Below, in pieces: positions 2,038 to 12,551 of a stretch of 64,000 bases of DNA. The notes beneath the pieces are model-generated. The model did not search any database. It saw only the letters and a program-made list of their open reading frames with translations, and was not told where the DNA came from. Each line of letters begins with the position of its first letter. Position 1 is the stretch's first letter. Both the position numbers and the translations under genes were made by a program. Location: positions 62,001-126,000 of the forward strand of contig CAIYSL010000119.1 in assembly GCA_903928915.1 (NCBI GenBank). The letters run 5' to 3'. The stretch comes from an uncultured Syntrophobacterales bacterium (GTDB lineage: Bacteria > Desulfobacterota > Syntrophia > Syntrophales > UBA5619).

Positions 2038-3522
2038 TTGGAGCGTCTGATGAGTCTGGGTGCGATGCTGGCCGAAAGCGCCGTGCAGTTTGCGTGCAAG
2101 GTTGCCGTCATCCACGGCGAACGGAGGATCACCTACGGCGAGTTGAACCGGGCCGCCTGCGCCCTGGGAAACAATCTCCGGTCGCTCGGTCTCGGCAAGG
2201 GGGACAAGGTCGCCCTGATGCTCCCCAACTGTCCCGAGTTCGTGATCGCCTACTTCGGCATCCAGAAGATCGGCGGCGTGGCCGTGACGCTGAACGTCCA
2301 GTCCACCCCCTACGAGCTCGCGCATCTGCTGGCCGACAGCGATTCCCGGTGCCTGATCACCCAGGAGAGCCTGGCGAAGCGCTTCGAGGAGATACGAAGC
2401 GAGCTTCCGCTCTGCGGCCACCTCATCACCACGAACGGCCCGGACGATCCCTCCCCCTTCCGGGAGATCGTCGCCGCCGGCCCCTTCACCGAGGATATCC
2501 CGCCGCTGGCGGACGACGACCCCGCCGTGATGATCTACACGGCAGGCCTCACCGGAAAGCCCCTCGGCGCCGTCCTCACCCACCGCAACCTCCTCACCCA
2601 GTCGGTCCTGCTGAGGACGATCTGCCACATGGACGACGACAACATCGGCCTGGCCGTCATCCCCTTCTTCCATTCCTTCGGCGCCGTGGCAAACATGCTG
2701 GCGCCGCTCAGGATCGGCGCGGCGGCCGTCCTGATGGACCGGTTCACCCTCGACGGGATCTTCACCGCCATCGAACGGGAACGGGTGACCTACGTCGCCG
2801 CCGTGCCCCGGCTCTTCCTGGGGATGCTGTTCCATACCGGCAGCGAGAAGTACCGGACCGATTCGCTGAAGTTCTGCGTCACCGGCGGCGCGGCGATGCC
2901 CCCCGAATTCATCCCCCTGTTCGAACAGCGGTTCGGCGCCAAGATCATGGAGGGCTACGGCCTCACCGAGGCCTCGCCCGTCTCCTCCTTCAGCCGCCTC
3001 GACATGCCCCAGAAGCCCGGCTCCATCGGGATTCCCATCCCCGGCGTGGAGGCGCGGATCGTTGACGCAGAGGAGCGGGACGACCACGACCGGGAGCTCC
3101 CGCGGGGGACCGTGGGCGAGTTGATCCTCCGGGGCGAGAACATCATGCAGGGCTACTACAAGGACGACGTGATGACCGCCCAGGTCCTGAAAGGGGGCTG
3201 GCTCCACACGGGCGACCTCGGCAGGATGGACCAGGACGGCTACATCTTTCTCACCGGTCGGAAGAAACGGATGATCATCACCAGCGGATTCAACGTCTAC
3301 CCCCGGGAGATCGAGATCATCCTCGGTCTCCACCCCGCCGTCCAGGAGGCCCGTATCGTCGGGAAGGAGGACCTGCTGCGGGGGGAGATCGTCAAGGCGC
3401 TCGTGGTGCGCAAGCCCGGGCGGGGGCTCGAGGAGCGCGACCTGCTCAAGCACTGCCGGACCTACCTGTCCACCTACAAGGTCCCGCGGGAGATAGAATT
3501 CGTGGAAAGGATGGAACAATAG
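2038..3522 (+). CDS. Acyl-CoA synthetase (AMP-forming)-like protein lacking the C-terminal catalytic lysine motif
   Basis: Class I adenylate-forming (ANL) enzyme of the acyl-CoA ligase type, expected to convert a carboxylic acid, ATP and CoA to an acyl-CoA. The order of core motifs is normal: the P-loop at about residues 167-178, the GYGLTEASP motif near 305, LHTGDLG near 390, and the hinge region with FNVYPREIEI near 420. Two things are odd. The P-loop reads YTAGLTGKPLG, so the usual Ser/Thr-Gly-Thr-Thr and the second Lys are altered. The protein also stops at 494 residues just after YKVPREIEFVER, before the PKT..GK motif that carries the catalytic lysine. The start is uncertain: TTG 2038 (17 bases after AAGGAGG) or ATG 2050. 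Two bases separate its stop from the thiolase ATG, so the pair is an operon. Confidence 0.8.
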   Translation: MERLMSLGAMLAESAVQFACKVAVIHGERRITYGELNRAACALGNNLRSLGLGKGDKVALMLPNCPEFVIAYFGIQKIGGVAVTLNVQSTPYELAHLLADSDSRCLITQESLAKRFEEIRSELPLCGHLITTNGPDDPSPFREIVAAGPFTEDIPPLADDDPAVMIYTAGLTGKPLGAVLTHRNLLTQSVLLRTICHMDDDNIGLAVIPFFHSFGAVANMLAPLRIGAAAVLMDRFTLDGIFTAIERERVTYVAAVPRLFLGMLFHTGSEKYRTDSLKFCVTGGAAMPPEFIPLFEQRFGAKIMEGYGLTEASPVSSFSRLDMPQKPGSIGIPIPGVEARIVDAEERDDHDRELPRGTVGELILRGENIMQGYYKDDVMTAQVLKGGWLHTGDLGRMDQDGYIFLTGRKKRMIITSGFNVYPREIEIILGLHPAVQEARIVGKEDLLRGEIVKALVVRKPGRGLEERDLLKHCRTYLSTYKVPREIEFVERMEQ

Positions 3523-3524
3523 CC

Positions 3525-4880
3525 ATGGAAAAGATACCGCAAAGACTGGACCGGACACTCGCCGAGATCTACGCCCAGGCGCCCGTCGCCGCCTACGGCG
3601 CGCGGAAACCCGAGCCCCCGGCTGCGCCGGGCGGCAGGAATAAGGCCGCGCCGGGGCTGCGGGAGGTGGTGGTCGTGGAGGCCTGCCGCACCCCCTACGG
3701 CCGCTTCGGCGGCGCGCTCAAGGGGTTCAGCGCCCCGGAGCTGGGGGCCCTGGCCATCAAGGAAGCCCTCCGCCGCACCGGCGGGAAGGTCAAGCCCGCC
3801 GACGTGGACTACGTCTTCATGGGTCAGGTCGTGCCCGCGGGCTGCGGCCAGGTCCCCAGCCGCCAGGCCACGATCCTGGCGGGACTTCCCGAGACGGTCC
3901 CCAGCATCACCGTCAACAAGGTCTGCTCCTCCGGGATCAAGACCGTCGACCTCGCCCTCCAGATGATCCAGCTCGGGCGGGCGGACATCTGCATCGCCGG
4001 CGGTCAGGAGAGCATGACCAACGCCCCCTTCGGCCTGCCCGAGATGCGCTGGGGCGCCCGGATGGGGCTCCCTTCCCGCCCCGCCGTGGACCTGATGGTC
4101 AACGACGGGCTCTGGTGCGCCTTCTATAACCGCCACATGGCGCTGCACGGCTCGGAAGTGGCGGACGAATTCGGGTTCAGCCGGGCCGATCAGGACGAGT
4201 GGGCGCTGCGCTCCCAGCAGGCCGCGGTAGACGCGATGCAGGCGGGGCGTCTCGACGAAGAGATCTTCCCCGTCGAGGTCCGCGAGGGGAAGAAGACCCT
4301 GGTCATGGACAAGGATGAGGGGCCCCGGCCGGAGACGACGGCCGAAGGGCTGGCCAAGCTGCCTGCCGTGTTCGGCCACAAGAGCACCGTCACCGGCAAA
4401 CCGGGAAGCGTGACCGCCGGCAACGCCCCCGGGGTGAACGACGGGGGCGACGTCTGCCTCCTGATGAGCGCCGAGCGGGCCGCGGCCCTCGGGATCAAAC
4501 CGCTCTGCACGATCGTCGATTACGCCGAGGTCTCCCAGCCGCCGAAGGACATCGCCACGGTCCCGGGGCTCGCCATCCGGAAGGTCCTGGAGCGAAACGA
4601 CCTCACCCTCGACGAGATCAAGCTGGTGGAGATCAACGAGGCCTTCGCCGCGGTCGTCCTGGTCAGCGCCCGGGCGATCCTGGGGATGACGAAGGAGGAG
4701 ATGTTCGCCAAGGTCAACGTCAACGGCAGCGCGATCGCCTACGGCCACCCCATCGGCGCCACGGGGGCACGGATCCTGATGACCCTGGCCTACGAACTCC
4801 GGAGGCGCGGCGGAGGCTTGGGCGTCTGCGGCATCTGTTCCGGCGCCGCCCAGGGCGACGCCATGCTGATCCGGGTGTAG
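3525..4880 (+). CDS. Acetyl-CoA acetyltransferase (thiolase) with N-terminal extension
   Basis: Thiolase that cleaves 3-oxoacyl-CoA (or condenses two acyl-CoAs) in beta-oxidation. The nucleophilic Cys is near residue 134 in NKVCSSGIKT. The GHP motif lies in NGSAIAYGHPIGATG (His near 408), and Cys residues near 435 and 438 occupy the C-terminal catalytic region (CGICSGAAQGDA). At 451 aa it exceeds the usual ~390-400. The thiolase fold begins at about residue 46 (REVVVVEACRTP) after a Pro/Ala-rich linker. The first ~18 residues (MEKIPQRLDRTLAEIYAQ) resemble the tail of an acyl-CoA ligase, the part the upstream gene lacks. It is followed 24 bases later by the crotonase gene. Confidence 0.9.
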   Translation: MEKIPQRLDRTLAEIYAQAPVAAYGARKPEPPAAPGGRNKAAPGLREVVVVEACRTPYGRFGGALKGFSAPELGALAIKEALRRTGGKVKPADVDYVFMGQVVPAGCGQVPSRQATILAGLPETVPSITVNKVCSSGIKTVDLALQMIQLGRADICIAGGQESMTNAPFGLPEMRWGARMGLPSRPAVDLMVNDGLWCAFYNRHMALHGSEVADEFGFSRADQDEWALRSQQAAVDAMQAGRLDEEIFPVEVREGKKTLVMDKDEGPRPETTAEGLAKLPAVFGHKSTVTGKPGSVTAGNAPGVNDGGDVCLLMSAERAAALGIKPLCTIVDYAEVSQPPKDIATVPGLAIRKVLERNDLTLDEIKLVEINEAFAAVVLVSARAILGMTKEEMFAKVNVNGSAIAYGHPIGATGARILMTLAYELRRRGGGLGVCGICSGAAQGDAMLIRV

Positions 4881-4904: not shown

Positions 4905-5687
4905 ATGGAATACCGGAACATCCTGTTTGCCGTCGATGAAGGGGTGGCAGTGCTTACCTTCAACCGGCCCAAGGCGCTCAACGCGATGAATTCCGAGACG
5001 ATCGCGGAGCTCGCCGACGCGGTGGCCGTCTGCGGGAAGGACGAGGCCGTCAAGGCGCTCGTCCTCACCGGGGCCGGGGAACGGGCCTTCGTGGCCGGCG
5101 CCGACATCTCCCAGATGCGCGACCTCCGGCCCCAGGAGGCGCTCGCCTTCATGGAGCAGGGCCAGGAGACCCTGCGGCGGGTCGAGACGCTCCCCAAGCC
5201 GGTCATCGCCGCCGTGAACGGCTTTGCCCTCGGCGGCGGGACGGAGATCGCGCTGGCCTGCGACATCCGCTTCGCCTCGGAGAAGGCCCTGTTCGGCCAG
5301 CCCGAGATCCTGATCGGCCTCATCCCCGGCTGGGGCGGGACCCAGCGCCTCGCCCGGATCGTCGGGATGGGCCGGGCGAAGGAGATGATCCTGAGCGGGG
5401 GGCAGATCGACGCGAAACGGGCCTTCGAGATCGGCCTTGTCAACCGCCTCTTCCCGCCGGAGCAGCTGCTCCCGGAAACGGTTGCCTTCGCCCGGAAGCT
5501 GGCGGCGCTGCCCGGGTTCGCCCTCAAGATGGCCAAGCACAGCATCAACTTCGGCGCCGACCTGCCCCTCGACAACGCCTGCCGGATCGAGGCCGAGTGC
5601 TGCGCCCAGTGCTTCAGCACCGACGACCAGAAGGAAGGGATGGGGGCCTTCCTGGAGAAGCGGAAACCCGTTTTTCACGGCCGATAA
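4905..5687 (+). CDS. Enoyl-CoA hydratase/isomerase (crotonase family)
   Basis: Cytoplasmic crotonase-fold protein, 260 aa, the normal family length. It probably hydrates 2-enoyl-CoA (crotonyl-CoA) to 3-hydroxyacyl-CoA. Seen in the sequence are the substrate/oxyanion segment AFVAGADISQM, the second oxyanion-hole glycines and first catalytic glutamate in FALGGGTEIALACDIRFAS, and the second glutamate in GQPEILIGLIPGWGGTQRL. Both glutamates typical of hydratases are present, which favours hydratase over isomerase. AAGGAGCG lies before the ATG. It is third in a run with an acyl-CoA ligase and thiolase, which fits a beta-oxidation or acyl-CoA assembly operon. A terminator lies 25 bases downstream. 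Confidence 0.9.
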   Translation: MEYRNILFAVDEGVAVLTFNRPKALNAMNSETIAELADAVAVCGKDEAVKALVLTGAGERAFVAGADISQMRDLRPQEALAFMEQGQETLRRVETLPKPVIAAVNGFALGGGTEIALACDIRFASEKALFGQPEILIGLIPGWGGTQRLARIVGMGRAKEMILSGGQIDAKRAFEIGLVNRLFPPEQLLPETVAFARKLAALPGFALKMAKHSINFGADLPLDNACRIEAECCAQCFSTDDQKEGMGAFLEKRKPVFHGR

Positions 5688-8465: not shown

Positions 8466-10151
8466 TTATTTTTTCCGCTTCTCCAGCTCCTCCGCCCGGA
8501 GCTGCTTCCGGAGGATCTTGCCCACGTTCGTCTTGGGGAGCTCCTTGCGGAACTCGATCTCCGTCGGGAGCTTGTACGTGGCCAGCCGCGTCTTGCAGTA
8601 CTCGATCAACTCCTCCGGGGTGGCGGTCATCCCCTCCTTCAGGACCACGAACACCTTCACGCTCTCCCCCCGGATCGGATGCGGGACGCCGATCGAGCAG
8701 GCCTCCTGGACCTTGGGATGGAGGTAGAACACCTCGTCGATGTCCCGCGGGTAGACGTTGAACCCGCCGGAGATGATCATGTCCTTCTTCCTATCGACGA
8801 TGTAGAAGTAGCCGTCCTCGTCCATGGTGGCGATGTCGCCGGTGTAGCACCAGCCGTCGCGGAGCGTCTTGGCCGTCTCGTCGGGCCGGTCCTTGTAGCC
8901 CAGCATCACCTGAGGCCCCTTGACGATCAGCTCCCCCCGCTCTCCCACCGGGACGTCGGTCACCTCGTCCTCCAGGTCCACGATCCGCGCCAGGGTGTCC
9001 GGAATCGGCACGCCCACGCTTCCCACCTTGTGCACACCCATGAACGGGTTGACATGGGTCACCGGCGAGGTCTCGGTCATCCCGAACCCTTCCATGATGA
9101 TCGCCCCGGTGGCCTTCTCGAAGTCATGGATCACCTCCACCGGCAGCGGCGCGCTCCCGGAGAAGGCCCCCTTGATGCAGGTCATCGGGGTCTTCTTCAG
9201 GTCGGGATGGTTCAGCATCCCGATGTACATCGTCGGCACCAGCGGCGTGAAGCTCGGACAGAAGCTCCGGATCGCCTCGAGCAGCGGTTCCGGCTGGGGC
9301 CGGGGGACGAGGATCTGGGTCCACCCTTTGTAGATGGCGTAATTCAGGACGACGGAGAGACCGAAGACGTGGAAATAGGGGAGCGCCCCGAGGATTATCT
9401 CCCCGCCCTTGCCGAAGGCGGGCACCCACGACGAAAGCTGCTGCACCTGCTTGCTTAGGTTCGCGTGGGTCAGCATCACCCCCTTGGAGACGCCGGTCGT
9501 CCCGCCGGTGTACTGGTACATGGCCACGTCGGCAAATGCGCACTTCACCGCCGGCGGATTGGGGCCGTACTTGGCGAGGCACTCCTTCCAGTCGTACACA
9601 TCCGCTGCCGGCTTGACCGCGCCGAAGGGGTACTTCTTCAGCCATCTGCCCAGGACGCGCTTGAGCGGGGGGAGATAATCCCCGATGCAGGTGGTGACGA
9701 TCTGTTTGACCTTCGTCCGGGGCCTAAGGTCGATCATCCGGTTTGCGAGCACATCCAGGGTTATCAACACCTTGGCGCCGGAATCGTTGAACTGGTGCTC
9801 CAGTTCGGGATCGGAGTAGAGGGGGTTGTTCATCACCGTGACCGCCCCGATCTTCAGGATCGCGTAGTAGGCGACGACGCAGGGGATGATGTTGGGCAGG
9901 AGGATCGCCACGGCCTCCTTCGGTTTGACGCCGAAGGCGGCGAGGCAGGCGGCGAACCGGTCCACCATCTCCTTCAGCTGCCCGAAGGTGACGGTCGTCC
10001 CCTGGAAGACCAGGGCCGCCTTATCGGGGAACTCCGCCGCGGTCCGCTCCAGGAAATCGGGCATGCAGACCTCTTCATAGGCGATCGTCTGCGGGACCCC
10101 CTTTTCGTACGACTTCAGCCACGGTTTCTCCAGGTACCTCGACTCGGCCAT
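8466..10151 (-). CDS. fadD: Long-chain fatty acid--CoA ligase
   Basis: AMP-forming acyl-CoA synthetase, 561 aa, that activates fatty acids to acyl-CoA at the inner membrane/cytosol. All core motifs are intact: P-loop YTGGTTGVSKG with the downstream MLTH, EGFGMTETSPVTH, GWCYTGDIATMDEDGY, the hinge DRKKDMIISGGFNVYPRDIDE, and the C-terminal LPKTNVGKILRKQLR carrying the catalytic lysine. That makes it the functional contrast to the ligase at 2038. Start at ATG 10151 is preferred, with GGGAGGG 10 bases upstream; an upstream in-frame codon at 10205 would add 18 residues without a good site. It lies downstream of the ETF:quinone oxidoreductase-like gene in the same direction, separated by a repeat-bearing gap. 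Confidence 0.9.
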   Translation of the reverse strand: MAESRYLEKPWLKSYEKGVPQTIAYEEVCMPDFLERTAAEFPDKAALVFQGTTVTFGQLKEMVDRFAACLAAFGVKPKEAVAILLPNIIPCVVAYYAILKIGAVTVMNNPLYSDPELEHQFNDSGAKVLITLDVLANRMIDLRPRTKVKQIVTTCIGDYLPPLKRVLGRWLKKYPFGAVKPAADVYDWKECLAKYGPNPPAVKCAFADVAMYQYTGGTTGVSKGVMLTHANLSKQVQQLSSWVPAFGKGGEIILGALPYFHVFGLSVVLNYAIYKGWTQILVPRPQPEPLLEAIRSFCPSFTPLVPTMYIGMLNHPDLKKTPMTCIKGAFSGSAPLPVEVIHDFEKATGAIIMEGFGMTETSPVTHVNPFMGVHKVGSVGVPIPDTLARIVDLEDEVTDVPVGERGELIVKGPQVMLGYKDRPDETAKTLRDGWCYTGDIATMDEDGYFYIVDRKKDMIISGGFNVYPRDIDEVFYLHPKVQEACSIGVPHPIRGESVKVFVVLKEGMTATPEELIEYCKTRLATYKLPTEIEFRKELPKTNVGKILRKQLRAEELEKRKK

Positions 10152-10206
10152 ACTCGTCCACCCTCCCTTCTTTTTTTGCTGGATCCGTCCTCCCGGAACC
10201 TCCACT

Positions 10207-10403: not shown

Positions 10404-12551
10404 TCACGCTCCGGGCAGGGCGCAGACGTCCGCCGGGGGCTTCTCCTCTTCCAGCCCCATCGATTGCCAGACGATCTCGGCGATGTCGAGGCAGGCCGTC
10501 GTCTCCTCCTTCTTGCGGTCCTTGATCCCGTCGGACAGCATGGTCAGGCAGAAGGGGCAGCCCACGGCCACCCTGCCGGCGCCGGTGGCGATCGCCTGGT
10601 CGGTGCGCATGTTGTTGATCCGCTCGCCCACGTCCTCTTCCATCCACATCCGCGCCCCGCCGGCACCGCAGCAGAAGCTCCCGGCCGCCGACCGCTCCAT
10701 CTCGGTCAGCCGCAGGCCGGGGACGGCCGCGAGGATCCGCCGGGGCTGGTCGTAGATCCCGTTGTACCGGCCGAGGAAGCAGGAGTCATGGTAGGTGGTG
10801 AGCCCCCCCGCCAGCGGTTTCTTGAACGCGATCTTCCCCTGGCCGATCAGGTCGGCGATGATCTCCGTGTGGTGGTACACCGCGAAGGCGCCGCCGAAGT
10901 GCGGGTAGTCCTTCTTCAGGGCGTTGTAGCCGTGCGGACAGGTGGTGACGATCTTCCGCACGTTGTAGCCCTTCATCACCGCGATGTTGGCCTGGGCCAG
11001 CGTCTGGTAGAGGTACTCGTTCCCCCCGCGCAGGGCGGAATCGCCGCAGCACCCCTCCTCGGTCCCGAGGATGCCGAAGCTGACCCCCGCCGCTTGCAGG
11101 ATCTTGGCGAAGGCCGCGGAGACCTTCTTCCCCCGGTCGTCGAAGGACCCGGCGCACCCCACGTAGAAGAGGTACTCCACGTTCGGGTCTTCGGCCAGGG
11201 TCTTGACCCCCAGCTCCTTCGCCCAGTCCGCCCGCAGGTGGGAGCCGACCCCCCAGGGGTTGGAGTTGTTCTCCATGTTCCGGAAGGTGAGCTGGAGCTC
11301 CGGCGCGAAGTCCGCCTCGGTCAGGACCTTGTACTGCCGCATCCCCACGATCTTGGGGACGTGCTCGATCGATGCCGGGCAGTGCTCCTGGCAGTACATA
11401 CAGTTCGTGCAGGCCCAGAGCTCGTGGAGATCGATCACCTCGCCGACCATGGCCTTCCCGGCCGGAGGCGCTTCCTGAGCCGCCTCGGCACCCGCCTCCT
11501 CCGGCGGCTTTGCGCTCTTGCGCGCCGCGACCGTCGCGGAGGCCCGCTCGAGCCAGTGGGTCTTGAGGTCCTGGATCACCTTCTTCGGCGAGAGCGGCTT
11601 GCCCGAGAGGTAGGCCGGGCAGCCGTCCTGGCAGCGCCCGCAGCGCGTGCAGGCGTCGGAATCGAAGATCTGCTTCTTGGTGAACTCCTCGATCCTCCCC
11701 ACGCCGAAGCTCTCGGCCGTCTCGAAATCCCGGATCGGTTCAAGATTCCCCACCGGCTTGAGCGACGCCAGGAAATGGTTGGCGGAGGTGGTGATGATGT
11801 GGATCAGCCGGGAAAAGGGGATGTAGGCGATGAACCCCAGGGAGAGCAGGGCATGAATCCACCAGTTCACCTTGTGGACAGCCCGCGCCGTGTCGGGATC
11901 GACCCCGGCAAAGGCCCTGGCCAGGGGCCAACCGACAAAGGACCAGACCTCCCAGGAGGGCCGAGTAACGTGAATCCGCAGTGCTTCGCTGAGAAAACCG
12001 GTGACGATGATCGCCAGGATCAAGAGCAGGACGACCGCGTCGTCGGCGGTGGTATCCGGGGTCTGTTGGTAGCCGAGACGGTCGGGCTTCCGGACATACC
12101 GGCGGTGGAGCGCCAGCACGATGCCGGCCAGGACGAACAACCCGGAGAGGTCCATCAACAGCGAGAAGAGCAGGTAAAACCACCCCCGCAGAAAGGTCCA
12201 CCCCAGCAGGGGCCCGGTGAGGTACGTCTCCTTGGCGATCAGGCCGGTCCCGATGAAGAGCACCACGAACCCGAAGAAGATCAGCCCGTGCATGATGCCC
12301 GGGTAGGGGTCGCGGAAGGTCTTGACCTGTCCAAGCCCGTGCGTCAGAAGCAGCTTGACCCGCTGGCCGAGGTTGTCCAGGCGCAGCTCGGGCTTGCCGA
12401 GGGCGACCCAGAGTTGCCAGCGCCGGTAGAGGCCATAGGCGAAGACCGCCATGGCAAGGGCCGCGAGGGGATAGAACAGGACACCAAAAGATTCGGCATT
12501 CCAGTATACCTGCCGCCCTTCATTCCCAACCGAAAATGCGACGTGTTCCAT
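10404..12551 (-). CDS. Membrane-bound Fe-S oxidoreductase (DUF224, ETF:quinone oxidoreductase-type)
   Basis: HdrD/GlpC-related membrane iron-sulfur protein, 715 aa. The N-terminal ~250 residues form a NarI-like membrane domain of about six helices, followed by two ferredoxin-type 4Fe-4S motifs (CTRCGRCQDGCP and CTNCMYCQEHCP). The C-terminal half has two CCG-type cysteine clusters (EGCCGDSALRGG and FCCGAGGARMW). In syntrophic fatty-acid oxidisers, proteins of this type are proposed to pass electrons from reduced EtfAB to menaquinone, the reverse-electron-transport step that butyryl-CoA oxidation needs. The location directly downstream of etfB-etfA, in the same direction, supports that role here. 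A repeat sits in the 236-base gap to etfA, so separate transcription is possible. Confidence 0.88.
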   Translation of the reverse strand: MEHVAFSVGNEGRQVYWNAESFGVLFYPLAALAMAVFAYGLYRRWQLWVALGKPELRLDNLGQRVKLLLTHGLGQVKTFRDPYPGIMHGLIFFGFVVLFIGTGLIAKETYLTGPLLGWTFLRGWFYLLFSLLMDLSGLFVLAGIVLALHRRYVRKPDRLGYQQTPDTTADDAVVLLLILAIIVTGFLSEALRIHVTRPSWEVWSFVGWPLARAFAGVDPDTARAVHKVNWWIHALLSLGFIAYIPFSRLIHIITTSANHFLASLKPVGNLEPIRDFETAESFGVGRIEEFTKKQIFDSDACTRCGRCQDGCPAYLSGKPLSPKKVIQDLKTHWLERASATVAARKSAKPPEEAGAEAAQEAPPAGKAMVGEVIDLHELWACTNCMYCQEHCPASIEHVPKIVGMRQYKVLTEADFAPELQLTFRNMENNSNPWGVGSHLRADWAKELGVKTLAEDPNVEYLFYVGCAGSFDDRGKKVSAAFAKILQAAGVSFGILGTEEGCCGDSALRGGNEYLYQTLAQANIAVMKGYNVRKIVTTCPHGYNALKKDYPHFGGAFAVYHHTEIIADLIGQGKIAFKKPLAGGLTTYHDSCFLGRYNGIYDQPRRILAAVPGLRLTEMERSAAGSFCCGAGGARMWMEEDVGERINNMRTDQAIATGAGRVAVGCPFCLTMLSDGIKDRKKEETTACLDIAEIVWQSMGLEEEKPPADVCALPGA

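Follow-up and report, generated by a model that had tools for sequence, protein, structure and literature searches.

The closest described systems are the class I acyl- and aryl-CoA ligases of the ANL superfamily, such as Amycolatopsis feruloyl-CoA synthetase (8wev), 4-coumarate:CoA ligase (4CL; 5bsr) and 4-chlorobenzoate:CoA ligase (3cw9). Among 374 class I sequences the lysine of motif A10 (Lys740) and the arginine of motif A8 (Arg639) are two of five invariant residues, the P-loop lysine (Lys330) occurs in 97%, and in T. thermophilus LACS the amine of this lysine contacts Thr325 and Thr326 (PMC6122825). According to the passages of the same paper that deal with mutants, replacement of the A10 lysine results in a 500-600-fold fall in CBL (K492A) and leaves about 4% of the activity of FadD13 (K487A, i.e., some 96% lost), replacement of the P-loop lysine of CBL (K169M) costs just 4-5-fold, and the A8 arginine of CBL is needed for both steps, with a 600-fold effect on CoA efficiency. 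Mutation of CBL Gly409 kills the thioester step only, and Asn411 contacts AMP in the thioester form (PMC6122825). Acetylation of the A10 lysine of acetyl-CoA synthetase is described as blocking the first half-reaction and not the second, and arginine as unable to substitute for this lysine in plant ACS (PMC10062202).

Two further systems are of interest for comparison. For FAAL-like domain 2 of the eukaryotic DIP2 protein, the authors suggest that adenylation was not retained and that the domain diverged to an unknown function (PMC9342972). Acs1 of Syntrophus aciditrophicus is described as a characterised, active acetyl-CoA synthetase with PPi-dependent ATP formation (PMC4992975).

The window analysed here (the whole stretch of 64,000 nucleotides, from an uncultured member of the Syntrophales) encodes a ligase homologue, the short ligase, which shares with the class I enzymes the whole-length fold, motifs A4, A5, A7 and A8, the hinge lysine and the residues of the AMP and acyl pockets, at about 26-32% identity (Table 1). 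Unlike these enzymes it lacks the A10 lysine, the T..K of its P-loop is replaced by L..L/M in the family, and the A8 arginine is often lost. Acs1 belongs to the same superfamily, and its host is presumably of the same order as the window organism; unlike Acs1, the short ligase lacks residues on which the ATP/PPi step depends, whichever way it runs. With DIP2 domain 2, as portrayed by its authors, it has in common an ANL domain with degenerate motifs; DIP2 is a eukaryotic protein of the FAAL branch with two fused domains, whereas the short ligase is a stand-alone bacterial protein of the CoA-ligase type, and the comparison is one of likeness, not of descent.

Table 1. Features of the short-ligase locus, in window coordinates.
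Feature	Position	Strand	Basis or remark
A10-less acyl-CoA ligase homologue	2038..3522	+	PF00501 and truncated PF13193
Altered A3/P-loop, YTAGLTGKPLG	2536..2568	+	Leu167 for Thr, Leu172 for Lys
Intact A5 (GYGLTE), adenine / alpha-phosphate / Mg site	2953..2970	+	Residue alignment
Intact A7 (TGD), ribose-binding Asp389	3208..3216	+	Residue alignment
A8, GRKKRMIITSGFNVYPREIE	3256..3315	+	Gly413 and Asn415 invariant; Arg404 retained in window, missing in many relatives
C-terminal end of ligase homologue; expected A10 segment missing after it	3478..3522	+	
Thiolase	3525..4880	+	PF00108/PF02803
Conserved N-terminal extension of thiolase lineage, not ligase tail	3525..3659	+	Extension comparison, shuffles
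Enoyl-CoA hydratase	4905..5687	+	Downstream of thiolase
Canonical full-length long-chain acyl-CoA ligase	8466..10205	-	Intact A3 and A10 (ELPKTNVGKILRK); neighbour in related loci too
CCG-domain iron-sulfur oxidoreductase	10404..12551	-	Recurrent neighbour

A conserved subfamily with a shortened C terminus

The short ligase comprises 494 aa when read from TTG 2038 and 490 aa from ATG 2050, the latter aligning with the start of most orthologs. The best Shine-Dalgarno-like match, AAGGAGG (2014-2020), lies 29 bases 5' of the conserved ATG and 17 bases 5' of the TTG, and the true start is uncertain because of this spacing. The protein belongs to the ANL superfamily by the Pfam AMP-binding profile (PF00501; 309 bits, cut-off 29.9), with the AMP-binding_C profile covered at positions 1-70 of 76 only. 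Among the best 25 of 106 NCBIfam acyl-CoA ligase models none passes, the highest being PRK06187.1 (438.3 bits, cut-off 476).

The first-pass annotation had described a ligase that ends before the A10 lysine segment and carries an altered P-loop. Both observations are confirmed, although the real terminus (...YKVPREIEFVERMEQ*) lies three residues further than the end first given. A match at E <= 1e-100 was present in 47 of 61 relatives, and a wider contig scan retained 80 of 209 matches as loci, with record titles mostly of Syntrophaceae, Syntrophales, Syntrophus, Smithella and Deltaproteobacteria; the assignment of ortholog rows to the order Syntrophales follows these titles. After removal of 18 exact protein duplicates and 4 rows of abnormal length, 110 loci (L021-L130) yielded 88 distinct proteins, which without exception lack an A10 segment and end at a distance of 13-24 residues from the YKxPR tyrosine. 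The segment is likewise missing from all 97 rows of the set enlarged with L138-L146, which was not deduplicated a second time (the tree shows at least one identical pair, L107 and L141). The rows dropped for length were L026/L054, which share one sequence with an internal TAG after residue 231 and may reflect either decay of the copy or an error in sequencing, and L030/L061, which read through to 768 aa and contain a run of unknown residues at the thiolase start.

Could the short end reflect an assembly error, a frameshift or a decaying pseudogene? The internal TAG of L026/L054 and an A10-like string in another frame at one of the 97 loci (L022) point in this direction. The idea that a sequencing error hides a single restored frame is contradicted by the orthologs, as the same end recurs in 97/97 rows from many assemblies; moreover, 13 of 14 close ortholog pairs have a dN/dS of 0.08-0.17 (the other pair is saturated) and the altered P-loop is strongly conserved. 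We consider this explanation very improbable. The search for a hidden A10 in other frames extended from 90 bases before to 210 bases after the stop at the 97 loci and returned only the L022 match (LPRRRFPGKI), judged to be due to chance; the strict pattern used recovers 25 of 38 other ligase tails and thus misses about a third.

The genome to which the window belongs gave 25 AMP-binding matches. Loci were obtained for 20 of these, including the window gene itself. The tails of the other 19 contain GK in 14 cases, TxK in two (L016, L017) and GA for GK in one (L018); in the remaining two (L019, L020) the A10 stretch is not visible in the tails as read. L018 (G000:C88:617-1672, minus strand) represents a second degenerate AMP-binding protein of this genome, with the P-loop IPTAAIQGKPRGAVLTH and the A10 sequence PKGPGGAV (GK to GA), and is placed outside the short-ligase clade in the tree.

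At E <= 1e-150 the short ligase is found in 93 of 108 order genomes that are >=90% complete. A phylum scan identified distant relatives in two further families, f52 (P-loop YSSGLTGYPMGAML) and f76 (P-loop IFTAGLLGRALGATL), which form a sister group; there the P-loop is altered in the same way, and A10 is shortened and in part eroded. Profile searches detected clade members in 20 of the 24 f52-order genomes and in 17 of the 18 from the f76 order. Four additional matches at E <= 1e-130 in the f52 order (L215-L218) are ordinary ligases and were kept apart as controls. At 1e-150, 34 of 395 phylum genomes pass: 16 of the own order, 11 of f52, 4 of f76, and 3 with ordinary ligases as judged by motif (G163, L156; G217, L159; G257, L151). 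The stricter test, a P-loop DNA signature, is positive in 12 of the 395, all of the own order. In a maximum-likelihood tree of 63 rows the short ligases form one group (100/99), as do the f52 proteins (100/100), with the single f76 row beside the latter (99/97), and all three together constitute a clade apart from 22 ordinary ligases (100/100). The homologue is thus a member of a conserved acyl-CoA ligase subfamily and not an error. In the open-licence PMC literature we found no title or abstract describing such a ligase family.

The thiolase extension is a trait of its own lineage

As first annotated, the thiolase starts two bases past the ligase stop in a different frame (stop 3520-3522, ATG 3525) and carries some 45 extra N-terminal residues, with Thiolase_N beginning at residue 48. 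The annotation had further proposed that the first part of this stretch is a degenerate ligase tail, moved to the thiolase by a change of frame. The two-base spacing, the other frame and a superficial EKIP match are compatible with such a transfer. However, when the first 16 residues were compared with real A10 tails, 637 of 1000 shuffles reached the best score. The extension follows the pattern MEKxPQKLxxxxxxxYxxAPxAxFGxRKPDF..., conserved in the thiolase lineage, and is found away from the short ligase: in six genomes (G029, G033, G045, G049, G188, G284) the thiolase bearing it lies on another contig, and it also occurs in a genome of another family (G190) that has no short-ligase match. It is kept whether the thiolase starts 2 or about 300 bases from the ligase, spacings that both occur among the orthologs, and other order members have at the same place a different thiolase (about 40% identical) without it. 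A transferred tail is therefore hardly credible; the 45 extra residues are a trait of the thiolase lineage, not the missing ligase tail. A 45-residue extension (PQKL...FGERKPDF) is seen at 3525-3659 of the window and in L189-L195, with and without a short ligase.

Residues lost and kept, and the predicted fold

Positions were mapped by motif to the numbering of PMC6122825 in an alignment of 134 rows, comprising the 97 order rows and 37 of the sister group (20 + 17). The P-loop threonine (Thr325) is Leu in all 134 rows. The P-loop lysine (Lys330) is retained in none, being replaced by Leu, Met, Ile or Val in 131, Arg in 2 and His in 1; the window protein reads YTAGLTGKPLGAVLTH. Since Thr325 and Lys330, in contact in T. 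thermophilus LACS, are both lost, a hydrophobic pair seems to have taken the place of a polar one. The A10 lysine is absent from the 97 order rows, and the 37 sister rows have Lys (29) or Arg (8). The A8 arginine (window Arg404) is present in the window and in 61 of 97 order rows, and in none of the 20 and 17 sister rows, so that it is lost in 73 of 134 overall. The clade thus shows stages of loss, with the P-loop pair gone throughout and A10 gone altogether in one order.

Thirteen residues examined in the AMP, acyl and pantetheine sites show no variation among the 134 rows, namely H208, G279, G280, Y303, G304, T306, E307, G356, Y369, D389, K406, G413 and N415 (in the numbering of PMC6122825 His373, Gly456, Gly457, Tyr486, Gly487, Thr489, Glu490, Gly573, Tyr591, Asp624, the hinge Lys, Gly648 and Asn650). 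They include the superfamily-invariant Glu490, Gly573 and Asp624. Other sites are loosened in the order: Gly623 is Ser in 21 of 97 rows, and Gly632 is replaced in 18 of 97. No clade-specific lysine that might act as a substitute was found at the checked alignment positions.

Given the loss of the A10 lysine and the change in the P-loop, adenylation by the short ligase is probably very weak or absent. Some residual activity would be possible, as FadD13 K487A keeps about 4% and CBL K169M loses just 4-5-fold. On the latter ground the protein might still be an ATP-dependent acyl-CoA ligase, slow or working with another basic residue; the intact AMP/Mg site, the location among beta-oxidation genes and the A10 lysine retained in 29 of 37 sister rows are in line with this. 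Against it, the A10 lysine, the P-loop pair and often the A8 arginine are lost together, no substitute lysine is apparent at the checked positions, and arginine, present in 8 of 37 sister rows, is reported to fail in place of the A10 lysine in plant ACS (PMC10062202). We regard a slow ligase as rather unlikely.

An AlphaFold model of the short ligase (78 sequences) reached a pLDDT of 91.3 and a pTM of 0.92. The Foldseek and VIA-align matches of this predicted model are CoA ligases and other ANL enzymes throughout, with the ANL fold extending over both domains; against 5bsr, 5bst and 4eat, 479-482 residues align at 1.9-2.6 A with Z about 50. CoA-bound or thioester-form structures are among those that match the whole length (1.8-2.6 A): 4CL with AMP and CoA (5bsr; 2.0 A, 481 residues), 3cw9, whose title calls it thioester-forming (2.3 A, 475 residues), and ternary MenE (5x8f; 2.0 A, 461 residues). 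With the ATP-bound 5bsm and 4fut the model aligns just to about residue 452-455, and with the adenylate structure 3cw8 it deviates by 8.6 A. There are exceptions to this trend, as 5bst (4CL with coumaroyl adenylate) fits over the full length and 3gpc (human ACSM2A with CoA) deviates by 8.7 A. The thioester-type domain arrangement is only a hint, because a control model of the full-length neighbouring ligase (11 rows) gave a pLDDT of 33.

Candidate roles and gene context

The annotation had offered, as its other reading, a ligase that lost adenylation and kept another role. Conservation, purifying selection and the pattern of lost and kept residues agree with this, and suggest that ATP-dependent adenylation is probably lost or nearly lost while a ligand-binding role is kept; for the specific role we infer acyl-CoA/AMP binding or sensing, acyl-AMP-to-CoA transfer and weak ligase activity as candidates. 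As the homologue has lost the ATP-using parts, keeps its pocket and is retained across three groups of anaerobic bacteria, its role is probably other than ordinary fatty-acid activation. On balance, we lean towards a subfamily that gave up ATP-dependent acyl-adenylate formation and would act as a non-adenylating ligand-binding partner or sensor. Such a protein would still bind acyl-CoA and/or AMP, probably in a thioester-type domain arrangement, and in Syntrophales would function within beta-oxidation gene sets, with activation carried out by ordinary full-length ligases. Against a loss of adenylation stand the sister rows with an A10 lysine and the A8 arginine of the window and of most order rows, as well as the variable context described below.

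A half-ligase that lost the ATP half only would keep the reaction acyl-AMP + CoA <-> acyl-CoA + AMP, using acyl-AMP from elsewhere or starting from acyl-CoA and AMP. The invariant Gly413 and Asn415 (Gly409 and Asn411 of CBL) correspond to thioester-step residues in the CBL mutants presented in PMC6122825, the acetylation effect cited from PMC10062202 concerns the first half-reaction only, and the model aligns over its full length with thioester-form structures. However, that structural match rests on a model whose control performed poorly, and the A8 arginine, with its 600-fold effect in CBL, is lost in more than half of the rows. The hinge Lys, Gly648 and Asn650 are also present in four ordinary ligases of the same alignment, so that their conservation is non-specific. 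A half-ligase would moreover require a source of acyl-AMP, and we know of none. This alternative is possible but doubtful, and a non-adenylating protein that binds AMP or acyl-CoA ranks above it because of the non-specific Gly648 and Asn650 and the loss of Arg639.

The non-adenylating reading bears on metabolic models. Homology annotation would give a fatty-acid--CoA ligase, and pathway models of syntrophs would therefore count an activation and its ATP cost, which the short ligase probably does not carry out. The staged loss of the ATP step in a ligase fold would be a natural experiment showing which elements of the two-step mechanism are dispensable, and the near-universal retention points to a function in energy-limited bacteria beyond present assignments.

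In Syntrophales the short ligase usually heads beta-oxidation genes. For 81 order loci the sequence continues for at least 1200 bases downstream. The nearest screened gene on the same strand, within a limit of 700 bases, encodes a thiolase at 52 of them, a hydratase at 2 and a phosphoglycerate-mutase-like protein at 2; the other 25 have no screened gene within this distance. With at least 3500 bases downstream (42 loci), a same-strand beta-oxidation gene is found in 23 and a full-length ligase in 8; in the window the full-length ligase sits 5 kb from the short one. In L132 and L187 the ligase gene is followed by two thiolase genes (a and b) and then by those for 3-hydroxyacyl-CoA dehydrogenase, hydratase and acyl-CoA dehydrogenase, in this order. 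Sister-group contexts differ: f76 loci have a PilS-like kinase, a sigma-54 response regulator and an OMP-decarboxylase-like gene, and f52 loci contain genes for a radical SAM and an HD_5 protein. An HD_5 protein is encoded in L133 as well. Neighbouring genes were rejected as proof of function because the context varies. Both the beta-oxidation and the signalling settings would suit a protein that acts as sensor or partner.

More speculatively, this protein, part of the core set in three orders of anaerobic and mostly syntrophic bacteria, could be a converted ligase that no longer uses ATP. It would instead sense or buffer the state of the acyl-CoA/AMP pool and so link energy charge and the level of acyl-CoA to near-equilibrium metabolism; it would be embedded in beta-oxidation operons in Syntrophales and lie next to signalling genes in relatives (a PilS/PilR-type pair; HD_5-family proteins with an HD domain). 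We put this forward as a tentative idea with a low chance of being correct.

In the loci L179, L246, L133 and L236 of relatives, signalling genes (HD_5; PilS/PilR-type pair) lie near the short ligase instead of beta-oxidation genes. Another recurrent gene, for a phosphoglycerate-mutase-like metalloenzyme (in L136 with PF10143/PF01676), separates the genes of the short ligase and thiolase from that of the full-length ligase (L136:11402-12610, L131:11957-13165).
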